33,510 bases of DNA from an uncultured Hyphomicrobiales bacterium (GTDB taxonomy: Bacteria > Pseudomonadota > Alphaproteobacteria > Rhizobiales > Beijerinckiaceae), in the NCBI GenBank assembly GCA_903884435.1, contig CAISEY010000014.1, positions 1 through 33,510 on the forward strand. The letters are read 5' to 3'. The notes beneath the pieces were generated by a model, which worked only from the letters and a program-made list of their open reading frames with translations, was not told the origin of the DNA and made no database searches. The position numbers and the translations under genes are program-made. Every line of letters starts with the position of its first letter. Position 1 is the first letter of the stretch. Below, piece by piece: positions 8,250 to 33,478 of the stretch.

Positions 8250-9263
8250 TCACTGATCCGCGATGATCCGTCGCGTGCGCTCCACGACCGCTTTCGGCGT
8301 CGCGAACAGTTCGCCGATCAATTGTGTCATTTTTTCGGGAGCGAAGGGGCGCACTTCCAGATTGAGTTTCGTCGCGTCCTCGACGAATTCCCTGTCGATC
8401 ATCGTGGCGGCGAAGGCGCGGCGCAGGACTTCGAGGCGGTCGCGCGGGATTTGCGGCGGCGCCGTAACCGGGCGTCCGTAGGTCCAGGGCGCCAGAACCA
8501 GTTTCAGGGTTTGCAGGTCTTCCGTCGTCCTCGCCTGTTCGAAGGCCGTCGGCGTGTCCGGCAGTTCGGGATGGCGCTCGAGGCCGGACTGATAAACGAG
8601 TTTGATCTTGCCCGCGGCCCATTCGTCGCGGACCTCGGTTTTCAGCGTCGTCAGGGACAGGGCGCAATGGCCGTCGACCTCTCCCTTGGCGATCGCGAGC
8701 CGGATGTCGGCGATGCCCGGATAGCCCATCACGAGCCTGAACTTGTAGCCGAACACGGCTTTCAACGTGCGCGCCTCGACCGCCGTGCCGCCGGCGGGGC
8801 CGGTGGCGCCCATGATGAATTCGCTTGTCGTCAGATCGTCGCGCGATTTCATGCGATCGGACCAGATTCCGCAGGTCGAGGTTTCCGTGGAGATGCTGCC
8901 GAGCCAGTCGAAGGCCCGCGGATCGAATTTCGCCTGGTCGGGATTGAGCAGGGGATCGGTCGTGTTGGGCGGCAGGATCAGGCCGATCACCGAGCCGTCG
9001 CGCGGGGCGACGTTGATGAGGGACTGCACCGCGTTGAGTCCGCCCGCGCCGGGGATCGCCTGCACGGACATGGTTGGATTGCCCGGAATATGGCGCGTGA
9101 TGTGACGCGCCAGAACGCGCGCGTAACTGTCGAAGCCGCTTGGCGGCGCGTAGGGCACGATGATGCGCAGCGCGCGGCCGGCGTAAAACTTCTCCGGCGT
9201 TTCCTGCGCGCCGGCGGCGCCGGCGGCGAGGAGGAGCGCGAGGCCGCCGGCGAGCGCTTTCAT
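8250..9263 (-). CDS. Tripartite tricarboxylate transporter (TTT/Bug) family substrate-binding receptor 1
   Basis: A periplasmic receptor of the TctC/Bug family, which captures carboxylates or related small molecules for a TctAB permease. The 337-residue protein starts MKALAGGLALLLAAGAAGA with cleavage likely before QET, followed by the family hallmark start of the mature protein (KFYAGRALRIIVPYAPPSGFD) and PGAGGLNAVQ near residue 80. The ATG at 9263 shares one base with the stop of the lyase upstream (TGATG), so the two are translationally coupled. No tctA or tctB gene is in the window. It is visibly similar to receptor 2 (11693-12715): both share IPGNP, PGAGGLNAVQ, NVAPRDGSV and TDPLLNP in the same order. 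The ligand cannot be predicted from sequence. Confidence 0.93.
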   Translation of the reverse strand: MKALAGGLALLLAAGAAGAQETPEKFYAGRALRIIVPYAPPSGFDSYARVLARHITRHIPGNPTMSVQAIPGAGGLNAVQSLINVAPRDGSVIGLILPPNTTDPLLNPDQAKFDPRAFDWLGSISTETSTCGIWSDRMKSRDDLTTSEFIMGATGPAGGTAVEARTLKAVFGYKFRLVMGYPGIADIRLAIAKGEVDGHCALSLTTLKTEVRDEWAAGKIKLVYQSGLERHPELPDTPTAFEQARTTEDLQTLKLVLAPWTYGRPVTAPPQIPRDRLEVLRRAFAATMIDREFVEDATKLNLEVRPFAPEKMTQLIGELFATPKAVVERTRRIIADQ

Positions 9264-10657
9264 CACATGACTCCCGGGTCTGTCGCGCGGGCGCGCCTGA
9301 TGAATTCGATCGCGCGGTCGGTCGCCTCGGGCGAAAGGCCGATGTATTTTTTCGGGTCGAGCTTTTGCGCGAGGCCGATGTCGGCGGCTGCCTTCGCGAG
9401 CGCGGGCCGCGCCATGATTTCGTCGATGAATTGGGTGTTGTTGTCCCAGGCGGCGCGCGCGGCGAGGCGCACTTCCTCGTGCGCCGTGTGCTTGCCGATC
9501 TTTTCGCCGAGCAGGAACATGGCTTCCTCCGCCATGATCAGTCCGTTGGTGCGGCCGAGGTCGCGCGCCATGGCCTCGGGATTGACCTTCATGTTGACGA
9601 CCATGCGCACGGCGGCTTTCGTCAACTTGTCCATGGCCGAGCTCACGTCGCCGAGCGCGTCGGCGCTGGAGATCTGGTCGCGTTCGTAAAAGGACATCTG
9701 CCAGTCGCGCAGAATGTCCGCCAGATGCGGCACGGCGCGCGCCTGCGTCAGGACCGTGCGCGAAAAGCTTGGATTGACCTTGTGCGGCATGGTGGAGGAA
9801 CCAACGTTCGACGTGGGCTCCTCGATCTCGCGGAAGTCGTCGCCCTGCAACACGAAGACTTCCTGCGCGATCCGTCCGAGGCTTTTCGACGTGATCGCGA
9901 GCAGCGCGCCATATTCGGCGAACATGTCCTTCGCGCCTTTCCAGTCGGCGGGCCAGGGCTCCGCGGTTCCCAGTTCCTTCGCGACTTCGGCCTCGATGTC
10001 GAACGCGTCCTTGCCGAGCGCGGCGTAACTTCCGACGGCGCCGGAGATCATCGTCGTGTCGTTGCGCGTGAGCCAGCCCTTGAGCCGCTCGATGTTGCGG
10101 CGGTTTTCCCCCAGCCAGCTTCCGACCTTCACGCCGAAGGTGAAAGGCAGGGCGTGGCGGCCCACCGTGCGACCGATCATCGGCGTCGCGCGATGTTCGT
10201 TCGCGATCTTCAGCAGGGTTTCCTCGACCTGGCGCAAATCCGAGATGAAGACGAGCGCGGCCTCGCGGCATTGCCGCAACTGAACGGTGTCGTAGATGTC
10301 CTGCGTCGTCGCGCCGTAGTGAATGTACTCGCCGGCGTCGCCCTTCGTCTTTTTGGCCCAGACGTTGAGCAGCGCGACGAGCGGATGGCCGACGCGTTTG
10401 TATTCCGCCGCGACTTCTGGCTGCGGCACGGACTCGAGATTGGCGGTGCGGGCGATTTCCTCCGCGGCGGCTGGCGGAATGACGCCGCGCCGCGCCTGCA
10501 CCCTGGCGAGCGCCGCCTCCATGCGCATCAGCAACGCTTGTGTGTGGGGCAGGGCGAAGAGCTCGGGGATGGGCGGCGTGTCCGCGGCGCGGGCCGGTCC
10601 CGCCGCGATGGCCGCCAGCAGCGTCGCCGCGGCGGCCGCGGTCGTGAGTGCGTTCAT
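9263..10657 (-). CDS. Exported lyase of the fumarase/aspartase superfamily (adenylosuccinate lyase / carboxymuconate cycloisomerase type)
   Basis: A 464-residue superfamily member with the expected motifs: HPLVALLNVW at 91-100, IHYGATTQDIYDT at 112-124, GRTVGRHALPFTFGVK at 162-177, and the catalytic signature loop GSSTMPHKVNP at 286-296. The end resembles the adenylosuccinate-lyase C-terminal domain (AHEEVRLAA at 392-400, LDPKKYIGLSPEATDRAI at 433-450). Two things are odd. First, it has a signal peptide: MNALTTAAAAATLLAAIAAGPARA, with a good AxA site at 22-24. Second, the His of the THG motif in true adenylosuccinate lyase is Val165, and the surrounding ALPFTFG is closer to 3-carboxymuconate cycloisomerase. 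ATG 10657 is chosen over upstream in-frame starts because GGGAGA precedes it. It is coupled to TTT receptor 1. The reaction is unknown; a role on a periplasmic carboxylate is inferred. Confidence 0.88.
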   Translation of the reverse strand: MNALTTAAAAATLLAAIAAGPARAADTPPIPELFALPHTQALLMRMEAALARVQARRGVIPPAAAEEIARTANLESVPQPEVAAEYKRVGHPLVALLNVWAKKTKGDAGEYIHYGATTQDIYDTVQLRQCREAALVFISDLRQVEETLLKIANEHRATPMIGRTVGRHALPFTFGVKVGSWLGENRRNIERLKGWLTRNDTTMISGAVGSYAALGKDAFDIEAEVAKELGTAEPWPADWKGAKDMFAEYGALLAITSKSLGRIAQEVFVLQGDDFREIEEPTSNVGSSTMPHKVNPSFSRTVLTQARAVPHLADILRDWQMSFYERDQISSADALGDVSSAMDKLTKAAVRMVVNMKVNPEAMARDLGRTNGLIMAEEAMFLLGEKIGKHTAHEEVRLAARAAWDNNTQFIDEIMARPALAKAAADIGLAQKLDPKKYIGLSPEATDRAIEFIRRARATDPGVM

Positions 10658-10816: not shown

Positions 10817-11686
10817 ATGCCGCAGGCGCGACGCATCGGACACGCGACATTCGAGACGCCGGATCTCGATCGTGAAATCGATTACTGGGTGAATGTCGCG
10901 GGCCTCGTGCTCGCGGAGCGCGAGGGCAAGCGCGCTTTTCTGGCGACGAAGGTCGGCCAACTCGTCGTCGAACTCAACGAGGGGCCAGAGGCGCGGTGCG
11001 CCGGGCTGTCCTTCGAGGTTTCGCCAAAGACGGATTTCGCCGCGCTCGGGCGTGAACTCGCGGCCGAGGGAGTCGCCAGCGCGCTCGCCAACGACGTCGC
11101 GCCCGGCATGAAGCGCGCGCTCACGCTCGAGGACAACAAGGGCACGAAGGTTCAGCTCTTCTCCGAGTGGAGCTATCTCGGCGATCATCACCAGGTCACG
11201 GGCGTCGGACCGATGAAGCTCGGTCACGTCGCCTTCGTCACGCCGGACGTGAAGGCGGTCACGAGCTTCTACGAGAAAGTGCTGCGCTTCCGCGTGTCGG
11301 ACTGGATCGGCGACTGGTTCTCCTTCATGCGCTGCGGTCCCGATCATCACACCGTGAATTTCGTGCGCGGGGACAAGACCCAGCTCGCCCACATCGCCTT
11401 CGAGGCGAAGGACATGTCGCATATCGCCTCGGCCTGCGATCTTCTCGGGCACAAGGGAATCCCGATCACCTGGGGGCCGGTGCGCCACGGACCGGGCCAC
11501 AACGTTTCCGTCTATCACCAGGACCCGGACAACAACACGGTGGAATTCTACATCGATCTCGACCAGATGAAGGACGAGGAACTCGGCTATTTCGAGCCGC
11601 GCCCCTGGCATCGCGACCTGCCGCAACGCCCGAAAGTGTGGGAAAATGGCACGTCGCAACTTTGGGGGATGAAGCGGCACGCGTGA
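10817..11686 (+). CDS. VOC-family extradiol (catechol 2,3-dioxygenase-like) ring-cleavage dioxygenase
   Basis: A two-domain vicinal-oxygen-chelate protein of 289 residues. The N-terminal module (about 5-117) is the degenerate one; the C-terminal module (132-250) carries the expected metal ligands: His137 in KLGHVAFVT, His192 in LAHIAFEAKD and Glu243 in NTVEFYID, the 2-His-1-carboxylate Fe(II) set of type I extradiol dioxygenases. YHQDPDNN (233-240) just before the Glu also fits that family. It is cytoplasmic, with no signal peptide. ATG 10817 has GGGAGAGAAG upstream. It is divergent from the lyase/receptor pair (159 bases between starts) and convergent with TTT receptor 2 (6 bases between stops). 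The substrate is probably an aromatic diol, but this is inferred; other VOC lyases are less likely given the ligand set. Confidence 0.88.
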   Translation: MPQARRIGHATFETPDLDREIDYWVNVAGLVLAEREGKRAFLATKVGQLVVELNEGPEARCAGLSFEVSPKTDFAALGRELAAEGVASALANDVAPGMKRALTLEDNKGTKVQLFSEWSYLGDHHQVTGVGPMKLGHVAFVTPDVKAVTSFYEKVLRFRVSDWIGDWFSFMRCGPDHHTVNFVRGDKTQLAHIAFEAKDMSHIASACDLLGHKGIPITWGPVRHGPGHNVSVYHQDPDNNTVEFYIDLDQMKDEELGYFEPRPWHRDLPQRPKVWENGTSQLWGMKRHA

Positions 11687-11692
11687 GCGGGC

Positions 11693-12715
11693 TCAGGGCG
11701 TCTGCGTCATCTTTCTGACCCTTTCAATCACGTCCGGCGGCGTGCGGAAAATCTCGTCGACGAGTTCCGCCGCGCGGGCGCCGGAGATGGGGCGGTGCTC
11801 CAGTTTGAGGCGCTTCATCTCGTCGATGAATTCGGGGTCCTTCATCGTCTTGTCGAAGGCCGTCCGCAGGGCCTCGACGCGTTCCCGGGGCACGTCGGGG
11901 GGCAGATAGACCGGACGACCGAAGGCCCAGGGACCGAACACGAGTTTCAGCGCCGCGAGGTCTTCCGGCTTTTTCGCGAGGTCGAAGGCGTTGGGAACCT
12001 CGGGAATATCCGGGTGCGATTCGACGCCGGCCTGGATCACGACCCGGATCTTGCCGGACTTGTAGTCCTCCCACAGGTCGCTTTTCAGCGTCGAGACGAT
12101 CAACGCGCAATGCCCGTCTATCTCGCCCTTCGCGGCGGCGAGGCGCACGTCCGCCTGGGCGGGGTAGCCATGCACGATGCGGAAGTTGAAGCCGAAGATG
12201 GTTTGAAGCGTCCGCGATTCGATGGTCGATCCCGCGGCCGGGCCCGTGCCGCCAATGACGACTTCGCGACCGCGCAGGTCTTCGAGCGTTTTGATCCTCT
12301 CGTTCCAGAAGGCGCAGGCCGACCCCTCGGCGTTGACGCTGCCGATCCAGTTGAACTTGCGGGGATCGAATTTCGAGGTTTCAGGATTGAGAAGGGGATC
12401 GGTGACGTTGCTGGAATTCATCGTCGCCATCACCGAGCCGTCGCGCGGCGCGACATTGGCGAGCGTCTGCACCGCGTTGAGCCCGCCGGCGCCCGGCACG
12501 GTCTGCACGACGATCGCCGGATTGCCCGGAATGAATTTCGGCATGTGGCGCGCGACGGCGCGGGCGTATGTGTCGAAGGACGAGGGCGGCGGATAGGGCA
12601 CGATCATGCGCATCGCGCGGCCCGCGTAGAACTTTTCCACGGCGTCTTGAGCCAGCGCGGGAATGGCCGTGAAAGCGAGAAAAAGCGCGCCAGCCGCGCG
12701 TTGCGTCGTCGTCAC
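11693..12715 (-). CDS. Tripartite tricarboxylate transporter (TTT/Bug) family substrate-binding receptor 2
   Basis: A second TctC/Bug periplasmic receptor, 340 residues, with signal peptide MTTTQRAAGALFLAFTAIPALA cleaved before QDA, followed by KFYAGRAMRMIVPYPPPSSFD and PGAGGLNAVQ. It is a close paralog of receptor 1 over the whole length, and the two flank the lyase and dioxygenase. I chose GTG at 12715 because GGGGGAA lies about 6 bases upstream and the start falls exactly at a normal signal peptide. An in-frame ATG at 12742 is possible but would add nine polar residues before the signal peptide. The gene is transcribed away from azlC with a 97-base spacer. No membrane TctAB partner is present nearby. 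Confidence 0.93.
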   Translation of the reverse strand: MTTTQRAAGALFLAFTAIPALAQDAVEKFYAGRAMRMIVPYPPPSSFDTYARAVARHMPKFIPGNPAIVVQTVPGAGGLNAVQTLANVAPRDGSVMATMNSSNVTDPLLNPETSKFDPRKFNWIGSVNAEGSACAFWNERIKTLEDLRGREVVIGGTGPAAGSTIESRTLQTIFGFNFRIVHGYPAQADVRLAAAKGEIDGHCALIVSTLKSDLWEDYKSGKIRVVIQAGVESHPDIPEVPNAFDLAKKPEDLAALKLVFGPWAFGRPVYLPPDVPRERVEALRTAFDKTMKDPEFIDEMKRLKLEHRPISGARAAELVDEIFRTPPDVIERVRKMTQTP

Positions 12716-12812
12716 GGATCGTTCCCCCGGGGTTTCCGCCATGCTGCCATGCGCGCGGCGGCATTGCAAAAGCGCGTCGCCTCGAGCAGGGTCGCGCCGG
12801 AACGGTGACGAT

Positions 12813-13574
12813 TTGAGCGAACTTTCTTCCACCGCCGGGGCGGATGCGCCCGGCGGACATTCCCCGGCATGGTGGTTTCGGGAAGCCGCGCGGCAGGCCG
12901 CCGTCGGCCCGATGCTGATTGTTTCGGTGAGCCTCGTCAGCGTCGGCGGACTCGCGCGCGACGCCGGCTTTTCGATGGAGATCGCCGTCGCCTCGACCCT
13001 GCTGATCTGGGCGGGGCCGGCGCAGGTTCTGTTTTTCGGCGCGGTGGCGGCGAAAACCGCCTGGCCCGCGATCGCGCTGTCGATTTCATTGTCCTCCATC
13101 CGCTTCGTGCCGATGGTGGTGTCGCTGCTGCCGCTGATCCGCGGTCCGCGGACGCGCACGCCGACGTTGCTCGCGGCGGCCCATTGTATCGCCGTCACCG
13201 TCTGGGCCGAGGGAATGCGCCGTCTGCCGGACGTGCCGAAGGAAGCGCGGCTGCCCTTCTTCTTTGGCTTCGCGCTGATGTGTTTTCTCGGCACGGTCGT
13301 CGCGACGGCGGCGGGATACGCGCTGATTGGCGAATTGCCCGTGCCGCTGGCGGCGGCGCTGCTGTTCATGACGCCGATCTATTTCGTCGCGACTCTGACG
13401 CGCGGCGCGCGGCAAATGGTCGACAGGCTGGCGCTGGTTTTCGGCTTCGCGCTGGCGCCCGCCGCGATGGCTTTCGCGCCCGCCGGGTTCGATCTGCTGA
13501 TCCTCGGCCTTGTCGCGGGCACGGCGGCCTTTCTCGCGGCGCGCGCGCTGGACGCGCGGAAGGCGGCGGCGTGA
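12813..13574 (+). CDS. azlC: AzlC-family branched-chain amino-acid exporter large subunit
   Basis: AzlC with AzlD forms an inner-membrane exporter (LIV-E family) of branched-chain amino acids and analogues. The protein has the family layout: AVGPMLIVSVSLVSVGGLARDAG near the N-terminus, then AGPAQVLFFGAVA and SSIRFVPMVVSLLPLIR, and several further hydrophobic helices to the end. The start is uncertain. TTG at 12813 gives 253 residues, the usual size; in-frame starts further upstream would add a Cys/Arg-rich tail that does not look like a transporter N-terminus. It overlaps azlD by 4 bases (GTGA at 13571-13574), typical of the pair. Confidence 0.9.
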   Translation: MSELSSTAGADAPGGHSPAWWFREAARQAAVGPMLIVSVSLVSVGGLARDAGFSMEIAVASTLLIWAGPAQVLFFGAVAAKTAWPAIALSISLSSIRFVPMVVSLLPLIRGPRTRTPTLLAAAHCIAVTVWAEGMRRLPDVPKEARLPFFFGFALMCFLGTVVATAAGYALIGELPVPLAAALLFMTPIYFVATLTRGARQMVDRLALVFGFALAPAAMAFAPAGFDLLILGLVAGTAAFLAARALDARKAAA

Positions 13575-30673: not shown

Positions 30674-33478
30674 TCAAACGAAGGTCATCGTCGCGCCGGT
30701 CACGGTCGCCAACGTCGTGTTTTTGAACGTGATCGTCTCGCCCTGGTCGGCGAAGACGGTGTCCGCGCCCGATTGCGTCATGTGCGAGGCCGCCGCCGCG
30801 GAATTCGCGTAGCCGAAGCCCGTGAGGTTGAGAATGTCCCAGCTTTCGAAGCCGTAGATCGTGTCGCTGCCAACCGCTGATTTGTCGAACTGGAACACGT
30901 CCGCGCCGCGTCCGCCAAACAACACGTCGTCGCCCGCGCCGCCGTTCAGGGTGTCCGCCCAGTTGGTCATAACGGTTTGCATGAAAGTCCGGAGCGGCGC
31001 GGCGGTGTTGTTCTTGTATTCGTCGCTTTCCGAGAAGCCCGTCACCACGTCCTGGCGGCTCATTCCGCCCGCCATCAGCGCCAGCCAGCCGTTGAGACCG
31101 CCGGAATCCGGGCCGCGCTTCAGCACGTTGTTGTAGAGCAGCGTCACGAAATCCGAATTGTTCTTTCCGCCATAGGCGGACTGGAATTCGGCTGAGTTGA
31201 TGAAGCCGCTGGCGATGCCCGAAAGCGTCTGCCCGCCCGCGAGGATGTCCACCCAGCCGCCGAAACCGGCGGAATCCGGCTGCCGGTTGAGCGTCGCGCC
31301 GTAGAGTCGGAACACCTGGCCGAAGAAGGCGGCGTCGAGCTGCGACGTGGCGAAGGCGCCGGTCTGCGCGTCGGTATTGCCTTTGTACTCGTCGCTGTTG
31401 GAGAAGCCGGTGACGACGCCGGAGCGCGACAGGCCACCGTTCATCAGCGCCAGCCAGCCATTGAGGCCGCCGGAATCGGGCGCGCGTTTGAGCACGTTGT
31501 TGTAGAGCAGCGTGACGAAGCCGGTGTTGTCGAGAGCGCCATAGGCGGCCTGGAACTCCGCCGAATTGACGAACCCCTGGGCGATGGAGTCGAGGCTCAT
31601 GCCGCCGTTCATGAAGCCTACCCAGCCATTGAGGCCGGCGACGTCGGGCTGCCGGTTCAGCGTCGCGCCGTAGAGGCGGAAGATGGTCTTCTGCGCGTCG
31701 GACAGCGCGAGATCGTCGCCGCCCTGGACGGTGTCCTGGGCGCCGTCGGTGGAGAGCATGTTCGCCGAGAGGTTCCCGATGACGTTGTCCCCGCTGCTCG
31801 TGCCGATCACGCCCTCGATCGAGGTGAACGTGTCGGTTCCGCCGAGGCCGTTGGTCGCGGTTCCCTTCGCGAGGTTCACGACGACGCCGCTCGCCGTCAA
31901 CCCGTCCTGGGCGGCGACGGTCGCGTCGAAACTGTAATCGAGAAAGTCCATGCCGAGGCCGCCAGAGATGGTGGTGTTGCCGCCGAGGCCCTGGAACGTG
32001 TCGCCGAAATCGTCGCCGACGAACACGTCATTGCCCGTGTCGGTTCCGCGCACCTTGTGGATATTGAACAATTTATCGGTGTTGCCGAAGCCGTCGATGG
32101 CGACGCCGGTGCGCAGATTGACGTTGACCGCGCCATTTCCGCCGCTGTTGCCGTCGCGGTCGTAACGCAGGATCACGTTGGCGGCTCCGGCGCCGCCATC
32201 GAGCGTGTCGTTGCCAGCGCCGCCGATGATTTGCGTCGTCGTCGCGCCGCCCACGATCGAATCCGCGTTCATCGTGCCTTCGATTCCCTCGATGCCCGAG
32301 AACGTGTCGGTCCCGCCCCAGGGGTCGAGCACCGTGCCCGAGCCCATGTTGATCACCAGCCCGTTCGAGCCGGTATAGTCCGAGTATGACAGGCGATCGT
32401 TGGTCGCGGAGCCGCCGGCAATGACGTCGTTGCCGCTGCCCGGACGGAAGTACGTCCCCTGCGTGCCGCCCGCGAGCGTGTCGTTGCCGGCCTCGCCGTA
32501 GAGGTTATAGAGCTTCCCCAGAATGCCGAGGGGCGTGTTGCTGCTGGTCAGCGAATCGCCGCCGCTGGTGCCGATGACCTCCTCGATGGAGGTGAACTTG
32601 TCGGTCGCCCCGAAGCCGTCGGTCGCGGTCCCGGTTCCGAGGTTTACCGTCACCGCGCCGGTTCCGCCCGAATAATTCGCGTCTCTCGAATAGTCCACGA
32701 TGTCGTAGCCAGAGCCGCCGGTGAACGTGTCGGCGCCGCCGAGGCCGCGGAATTCCACGCCGGAACCATCCGCTGTCATGGAATCGGCGATCTGGGTGCC
32801 GACGAGGCGGTTGACCGTGCCCGTCCAGGTATCGGTTCCGCCCCAGGGATCCGTGACCGACTTCGTGTTCAGATTGATGTTGAGCCCGGTCACGAGCGGC
32901 GTCGTCGAATAGGTGTCGTCATAGGCGAGCGTCAGGAATCCGCCGCCGGCGTAGTTGATCGCATCGTTTCCCGGCCCGAGGCGGACATAGCCGCCGGTGG
33001 AAGCGACATTGACGGTGTCGTTGCCCTTCGTGGCGTCCACCTGGGCGCCGCCGTTGACGTTGATCGTGTCGTCCCCGGCGAAAATATAGCCATAGGCCGG
33101 ATTCTTGCCGCCGCCAGCGCCGAAAAGGTTGGTCGCGAAAGTCGCCGCGCTGTTGTTGGTCAGGCCCGTGATCGTGGCCACCGGGTTGCTCAGCGTCGTG
33201 TCGCTGGCCTGGTAAAGGCCGATCGAGGTAATCGTGCCGCCGTTCGCGCGTCCCGAGGCGTCGTAGGTGAAGCCGGTCCCGTTCAGGACCAGAATGAGGC
33301 CGGTTGCGTTGGTGTTGGCGGGGTTTTGCAGGGACCAGCGCGTCGCGGTGGAGGCGAAGGCGCCGGAGGAGATCCGCGTGCTGCTGGCGTTGAACACATC
33401 GTCGTCGTTGATGAAGTTCAGCGATCCAGACGAGCCGACGAAACCGGTTGGCACATAGTTGATTGTGTACACAGCCAT
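30674..33478 (-). CDS. Large RTX-type secreted protein with duplicated DUF4214 region
   Basis: A 934-residue acidic, Gly/Asp/Asn/Thr-rich protein without a Sec signal peptide, consistent with type I secretion via its C-terminus. Order: N-terminal part (1-130); five copies of a module with the pattern V/I-N-L...GT..D..GGTDTF..IEG..GT (starting near 201, 278, 375, 453 and 534) interspersed with RTX-like GGAGNDTLDGG calcium-binding motifs; two tandem DUF4214 units (about 598-699 and 722-822) that are nearly identical; then a last RTX block NGGAGDDVLFGGRGADVFQF (845-864) and a hydrophobic end, TGATMTFV. ATG 33478 has AAGGAGAG just upstream. No hlyB/hlyD-type secretion genes are in the window. Role in surface or matrix is inferred. 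Confidence 0.9.
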   Translation of the reverse strand: MAVYTINYVPTGFVGSSGSLNFINDDDVFNASSTRISSGAFASTATRWSLQNPANTNATGLILVLNGTGFTYDASGRANGGTITSIGLYQASDTTLSNPVATITGLTNNSAATFATNLFGAGGGKNPAYGYIFAGDDTINVNGGAQVDATKGNDTVNVASTGGYVRLGPGNDAINYAGGGFLTLAYDDTYSTTPLVTGLNINLNTKSVTDPWGGTDTWTGTVNRLVGTQIADSMTADGSGVEFRGLGGADTFTGGSGYDIVDYSRDANYSGGTGAVTVNLGTGTATDGFGATDKFTSIEEVIGTSGGDSLTSSNTPLGILGKLYNLYGEAGNDTLAGGTQGTYFRPGSGNDVIAGGSATNDRLSYSDYTGSNGLVINMGSGTVLDPWGGTDTFSGIEGIEGTMNADSIVGGATTTQIIGGAGNDTLDGGAGAANVILRYDRDGNSGGNGAVNVNLRTGVAIDGFGNTDKLFNIHKVRGTDTGNDVFVGDDFGDTFQGLGGNTTISGGLGMDFLDYSFDATVAAQDGLTASGVVVNLAKGTATNGLGGTDTFTSIEGVIGTSSGDNVIGNLSANMLSTDGAQDTVQGGDDLALSDAQKTIFRLYGATLNRQPDVAGLNGWVGFMNGGMSLDSIAQGFVNSAEFQAAYGALDNTGFVTLLYNNVLKRAPDSGGLNGWLALMNGGLSRSGVVTGFSNSDEYKGNTDAQTGAFATSQLDAAFFGQVFRLYGATLNRQPDSAGFGGWVDILAGGQTLSGIASGFINSAEFQSAYGGKNNSDFVTLLYNNVLKRGPDSGGLNGWLALMAGGMSRQDVVTGFSESDEYKNNTAAPLRTFMQTVMTNWADTLNGGAGDDVLFGGRGADVFQFDKSAVGSDTIYGFESWDILNLTGFGYANSAAAASHMTQSGADTVFADQGETITFKNTTLATVTGATMTFV
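31013..31315 (-). repeat. DUF4214 coding repeat, copy 2
   Basis: Encodes residues about 722-822 of the RTX protein. It shares long identical or near-identical stretches with copy 1 at an offset of exactly 123 codons (369 bases), for example FRLYGATLNRQPD, LLYNNVLKR and PDSGGLNGWLALM. Confidence 0.9.
31382..31687 (-). repeat. DUF4214 coding repeat, copy 1
   Basis: Encodes residues about 598-699 of the RTX protein. Each copy itself contains two related halves (PDVAGLNGWVGFMNGGMS and PDSGGLNGWLALMNGGLS), so the region is a duplicated pair. Confidence 0.9.

Follow-up and report, generated by a model that had tools for sequence, protein, structure and literature searches.

All characterised members of the aspartase/fumarase superfamily that we know of work in the cytoplasm or in organelles. 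The general reaction is outlined in the available part of PMC13411527, in which the first Ser of the SS-loop is the general base, the loop Lys and Asn hold the carboxylates together with a Thr or Ser of the first motif, and the leaving group is protonated by a His that usually belongs to a His-Glu pair. The same text describes that the nitrosuccinate lyase CreD works without this His and has Leu170 at its position. For delta-crystallin, the available part of PMC2779060 describes that Glu294 bonds the active-site His160 of the neighbouring subunit. Its primers read Pro-Asp-Ser-Leu followed by the mutated codon, which makes Glu294 the fourth residue after a Pro; in the duck protein this Glu has the number 296, seven after Lys289, which was taken to be the SS-loop Lys.

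The window, which is the whole stretch of 33,510 nucleotides analysed here (contig CAISEY010000014.1 of an uncultured Hyphomicrobiales bacterium, assembly GCA_903884435.1), encodes a lyase of this superfamily (Table 1). The best solved relative of the window lyase was PDB 3c8t, a 'fumarate lyase' deposit that matched residues 30-448 at 1.3e-60 and has the same motifs, but it has its own His and Glu at the positions of window residues 165 and 300 and a His at 240. There is little room for a leader in 3c8t because the match begins at chain residue 17, though the construct may lack one. PcaB 1q5n (6.3e-50) and the trans-aconitate decarboxylase Tad1 (9h3i/9h4e; 6e-49) resembled the window lyase in having no His-Glu pair, with Trp/Ala in PcaB 1q5n and Asn/Val in Tad1, but both have a His at 240. 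In addition, no leader was found in L030, the row nearest to PcaB 1q5n, the window lyase missed all three PcaB models, and Tad1 grouped with L002 (support 100/99) and not with the clade of the window lyase. L002 (G000:C303:2800-4080), the other PcaB-like paralog in the genome, is also without the His (Asn/Ala) and is possibly a bacterial Tad1-like enzyme. CreD (5xny) is a likeness in that it is active without the His. By motif spacing from the part of the CreD description available, four of the five residues of the nitrosuccinate lyase fingerprint E49/H118/D125/H253/R341 had counterparts in the window lyase (Glu49, His118, Asp125 and Arg341), but His253, which is required for activity in CreD, corresponded to Lys240, and the window lyase does not carry the full fingerprint.

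Table 1. Features in and around the lyase gene, with window positions
Feature	Positions	Strand	Basis and remarks
Putatively exported aspartase/fumarase-superfamily lyase	9263..10657	minus	464 aa, intact ORF; translation, Pfam
Signal-peptide-like leader, 24 residues, cleavage-like ARA before AD	10586..10657	minus	Translation, hydropathy, leader rule; leaders in 8/8 copies
GATTQDIYDT motif, residues 115-124	10286..10315	minus	Translation, alignment; Thr117/Thr118 predicted carboxylate site by motif spacing (PMC13411527, available part)
GRTVGRHALPFTFG, residues 162-175	10133..10174	minus	Val165 (10163-10165) in place of catalytic His; translation, alignment
Lys240	9938..9940	minus	In place of His kept in 19/20 PcaB-like rows; alignment
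SS-loop GSSTMPHKVNP, residues 286-296	9770..9802	minus	Ser287 predicted general base, Lys293, Asn295; translation, alignment, PMC13411527 (available part)
Arg300	9758..9760	minus	In place of Glu of His-Glu pair; alignment, pair from PMC2779060 (available part)
TctC-like receptor gene	8250..9263	minus	20.6 bits, below the 27-bit Pfam TctC cut-off
Two-domain VOC protein, extradiol-dioxygenase-like	10817..11686	plus (divergent)	Pfam, NCBIfam; neighbour with no link to the lyase shown
Second TctC-like receptor, start uncertain	11693..12742	minus	54% identical to first receptor; neighbour with no link to the lyase shown
AzlC-like gene, start uncertain	12663..13574	plus	Pfam

The lyase and its place in the superfamily

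Translation of 10657..9263 and Pfam bore out the lyase core described in the initial annotation, with GATTQDIYDT, GRTVGRHALPFTFG, GSSTMPHKVNP and an ADSL_C-like end. The coordinates given there were right and the strand, which it had left out, is minus. The Lyase_1 domain scored 120.7 bits (cut-off 27) and the ADSL_C domain at the end of the protein 49.8 bits (cut-off 32.7). GSSTMPHKVNP agrees with the SS-loop pattern GSSxxPxKxN, and GGGAG was found just 5' of the ATG.

A total of eight copies were found, which represent one clade and not eight independent events; the other seven were 61-69% identical to the window copy. Within the genus, 4/51 genomes had a copy at E ≤ 1e-80, the window's own included. 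In the larger samples, scoring covered the four or five best candidates of each genome. In the family sample, 9/298 genomes reached 1e-60, four with clade members and five with relatives of 33-36% identity, while only the window's own genome was found at 1e-80 in the samples of the class (385 genomes), order (397) and phylum (398). For the family to which the L012 genome (Roseomonas harenae) belongs, the sample gave 3/328 genomes. A contig scan, which picks up close relatives only, showed four loci; two in Roseomonas, one in an Acetobacteraceae MAG and one in a Rhodospirillales MAG.

The window lyase stayed below the cut-off of every one of the 17 NCBIfam models listed. The best scores were those of the adenylosuccinate lyase (ADSL) model NF006500 (289.1 of 626 bits), the XcbD 3-sulfopropionylcysteine synthase model (285.5 of 600 bits) and PcaB (256.6 of 595 bits). 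The other two PcaB models gave 209 of 355.75 and 127.9 of 371 bits, and the nitrosuccinate lyase and class II fumarase models 193.1 of 650 and 27.7 of 664.75 bits. PurB resembles the window lyase in its Lyase_1 and ADSL_C domains, but the window lyase scored 242.2 of 326.2 bits with the adenylosuccinate lyase model TIGR00928 and was separated from ADSL in the trees.

The first tree comprised 45 rows, after L033 and L040 (partial or in the wrong frame) had been left out, and gave the clade a support of 100/100 and its split from the 17 ADSL rows a support of 100/100. With three long-branch rows (L031, L032 and L034) also left out, the second tree gave 100/99 for the clade and again 100/100 for the separation from ADSL. 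The clade was inside no PcaB-like subgroup in either tree. Support for a sister group was weak, with 44/55 for the PcaB-like rows as one branch side in the second tree and 92/41 for L031, which stood beside the clade on a long branch in the 45-row tree. The stem branch of the clade in the 45-row tree was also long, at 2.91 changes per column. The comparison with housekeeping ADSL proposed in the initial annotation placed the clade outside that group in both trees. Overall, it is highly improbable that the window lyase is simply a cytoplasmic enzyme of housekeeping or catabolism (ADSL, PcaB, Tad1 or nitrosuccinate lyase) that has been wrongly singled out. Such an enzyme would share the fold family and the best-scoring models with the window lyase, but no listed model was reached at its cut-off, the clade is set apart in the trees as described, and the window's genome holds four other Lyase_1 genes, including the ADSL-type L003 and the PcaB-like L002.

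Leader sequences and predicted export

The window lyase begins with the leader MNALTTAAAAATLLAAIAAGPARA directly before A25-D26, which confirmed the 24-residue leader with an ARA cleavage-like site. A home-made leader rule, consisting of an uncharged hydrophobic 12-residue stretch and a small-x-small cleavage-like motif, was passed by 8/8 clade members, all with a Sec-like leader at the start, compared to 25/399 ATG starts of the window. By eye, 20 of these 25 were in exported or membrane genes and the remaining five ran antisense to other genes, including two antisense to the lyase leader itself. A Shine-Dalgarno-like sequence was seen by eye 5' of the leader start in 6/8 copies (window, L004, L005, L006, L012 and L013).

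The peak 12-residue hydropathy of the clade leaders was 2.01-2.86 (8/8). The leaders of TctC-type receptors in the window's genome and three genus relatives showed 1.95-2.62 from the first start at 11/12 loci, with one locus having no start. The 36 control lyases (L002, L003, L007-L011 and L024-L052) had peaks of ≤1.74, with values for 34/36 that exclude L033 and L043 and include L040, which is in the wrong frame; 12 presumed cytoplasmic window proteins had peaks of ≤1.63. Three of four exported window control proteins were at 2.18-2.45 and the fourth was at 0.42 because its listed start is too far upstream, its real leader being seen with the leader rule. The eight genomes contained 55 Lyase_1 places, eight of the clade and 47 others, and no leader was seen by eye at the first start of 30 of the 47. 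The hydropathy mark of 1.95 was passed by 4/30 of these other loci, all from starts inside the fumarase/argininosuccinate-lyase core, and hydropathy alone was rejected as proof of export for this lack of specificity. No N-terminal leader was found in the other superfamily members examined, namely the controls and these 30 loci. In addition, the core had 0-1 Cys in 8/8 clade members compared to 1-10 in the controls, where a single core Cys also occurred in L030 and L047 (and in L040, in the wrong frame); a low Cys content is only supportive and does not prove export.

A mere Ala-rich N-terminal extension on a cytoplasmic enzyme is an unlikely explanation of these leaders. It would agree with the absence of Lys/Arg before the hydrophobic core in the window copy and with the ease with which GC-rich genomes give Ala-rich frames, as in the five opposite-strand starts among the 25 leader-like window ATGs, but the other seven clade leaders have a basic residue before the core, the cleavage-like small-x-small motif is present in 8/8 and no control lyase has such an N-terminal leader. 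The leader property was also kept despite a mean leader identity of 32% over the 28 clade pairs, against 70% for the core. Export of the lyase clade is therefore likely, and the proposal of a periplasmic superfamily member was well supported at the sequence level by the leaders in 8/8 members, their absence from control N-termini and the position outside ADSL.

In the literature, as judged from titles and the first parts of abstracts, no account of export was recognised for any enzyme of the aspartase/fumarase superfamily, and the available parts of PMC12290011 and PMC5373536 held nothing bearing on such export. An earlier exported member may exist because Table 2 of PMC11533796, as far as available, gives three periplasmic 'argininosuccinate lyase' entries, putative Tat substrates expressed in Achromobacter. 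These entries would be receptors under a wrong label or else further exported members of the superfamily. We suspect that the three are mislabelled TctC receptors.

Neighbouring genes and receptors

The lyase stop and the start of the receptor gene at 8250..9263 share one base (TGATG). The window has three TctC-like genes, and neither TctA nor TctB was found among the six window proteins scanned with Pfam or by eye among the window ORFs. The best NCBIfam model for the divergent VOC protein was HpaD with 135.3 of 321.4 bits, and no curated NCBIfam cut-off was reached. At the contig end, an ORF of 934 aa on the minus strand (30674-33478) had Gly- and Asp-rich repeats and was RTX/adhesin-like by eye.

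No gene common to all lyase loci was seen. A TctC-like gene adjoins the lyase in 4/8 loci, namely the window, L014, L015 and L013 (in the last case a remnant), and was not found beside the lyase in L012 or in the three genus relatives. The lyase neighbourhoods of the genus relatives are alike and contain AzlC-like, HIT-like and ClpA-like genes (HIT and ClpA by eye), the AzlC-like gene adjoining the lyase (Pfam in L017; by eye in L016 and L018). Short-chain dehydrogenases lie on both sides of the lyase in L012, and one lies downstream in each of the two Roseomonas loci. Gene neighbourhood was rejected as a guide to the substrate, the sharing of ClpA-like and AzlC-like genes or of a short-chain dehydrogenase being too small. 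At L013:9371-10795, a reading frame opens with the beginning of a TctC protein (first 68 profile positions) and continues in frame as a short-chain dehydrogenase, which suggests a receptor remnant or a fault in the assembly; a full TctC gene is the second gene upstream.

The initial annotation proposed a coupling of the lyase to a periplasmic TTT receptor, and the search it suggested for leader-bearing homologues beside such receptor genes showed leaders in 8/8 copies but TctC-like neighbours in 4/8 only. An uptake-with-processing module, in which the lyase would process the ligand of the co-encoded TctC-like receptor, is rather unlikely. The TGATG overlap and the immediate TctC-like neighbour or remnant in half of the loci are what such a module would show, but receptor neighbours are expected now and then because at least 115 TctC matches were present in each of 8/8 genomes (the window's G000 and seven relatives), where all 115 candidates scored per genome, out of 193-346 at first look, were matches, and the orientation differs. 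At E ≤ 1e-60, the window receptor P0002 had 72 matches in its own genome, and scoring of 150 candidates per genome gave no match in the genomes of L012, L013, L014 and L015, so no receptor partner common to the loci was seen. The similarity between the window and L014 receptors was no better than E 0.016, while the L014 and L015 receptors were 34% identical to each other. Receptor coupling was thus unsupported as a conserved feature and rejected as a defining one.

Active-site changes and a possible reaction

Glu47, His113, Thr117, Ser287, Ser288, Lys293, Asn295 and Arg326 were invariant in 8/8 clade members, as was the whole SS-loop GSSTMPHKVNP, and the same eight residues were present in at least 19/20 PcaB-like rows and in 17/17 ADSL rows. 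Val165 was confirmed in place of the THG-motif His, which is present in 17/17 ADSL rows. The closeness to the carboxymuconate cycloisomerase form proposed in the initial annotation needs qualification, because Val is not in itself a PcaB mark: PcaB 1q5n has Trp at this position, Tad1 has Asn and 3c8t has His. A change of His to Val was also rejected as a mark of PcaB or a sign of a dead enzyme, as 10/20 PcaB-like rows have no His at 165.

A new observation from the alignment is that the loss of the His at 165 is paired with a second change, the partner Glu of this His being Arg300 in 8/8 members. Both spacing rules, four residues after the Pro and seven after the loop Lys, point to residue 300 in the window protein. 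The 37 other rows included 27 with His at 165, all of which (27/27) also had Glu at 300, five with Glu and no His, and five with neither, including PcaB 1q5n and Tad1. Val165, Arg300 and Lys240 occurred together in 8/8 clade members, so the alignment indicates that the clade is without the whole His-Glu relay and has two additional positive side chains (Lys240 and Arg300). An invariant GDD was also seen at window residues 272-274 of the clade, with Asp273-Asp274 where most control rows have Thr-Glu.

The loss of both His-Glu halves and the long stem branch would suit an exported pseudoenzyme with a binding or scaffolding role, comparable to the reuse of a lyase fold in delta-crystallin. This is improbable given that 8/8 members keep the SS-loop, the residues that bind the carboxylates, Glu47, His113 and Arg326 without change, and that CreD, PcaB 1q5n and Tad1 are enzymes though they have no such His. 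With the serine base and the fumarate-binding residues kept, relay-free catalysis on a succinate-type substrate is the best reading, and a small, distinct and exported subfamily that carries out elimination on a substituted succinate without the His-Glu relay is, with fair confidence, the best explanation of the clade.

In this reaction, for which we infer export, tetramer, activity and leaving-group chemistry, the leader would direct the lyase through the Sec system and the mature protein would fold in the periplasm as the usual superfamily tetramer. Acting there on a substituted succinate, it would catalyse the anti beta-elimination typical of the superfamily, or the addition that reverses it. 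The SS-loop residue Ser287 would remove the proton from the carbon adjoining the leaving group, while Lys293, Asn295, Thr117 and Thr118 would hold both carboxylates. The leaving group would depart without the usual His-Glu proton relay because Val165 and Arg300 stand in place of the His and the Glu of the pair; judging from the alignment, the role of Lys240 and Arg300 is probably to contact a leaving group that is acidic, or an extra acid group. The product would be a fumarate-type acid, importable by ordinary carboxylate uptake.

The clade thus probably breaks down an acidic nutrient outside the inner membrane. If true, an exported branch would bring elimination chemistry on dicarboxylates to the periplasm, where it is not expected. 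As one small clade with one fold and few substrate types, it would also offer a clean target. Finally, the paired loss of His and Glu would be a natural test of the need for leaving-group protonation, which the available part of PMC13411527 names as an unresolved point.
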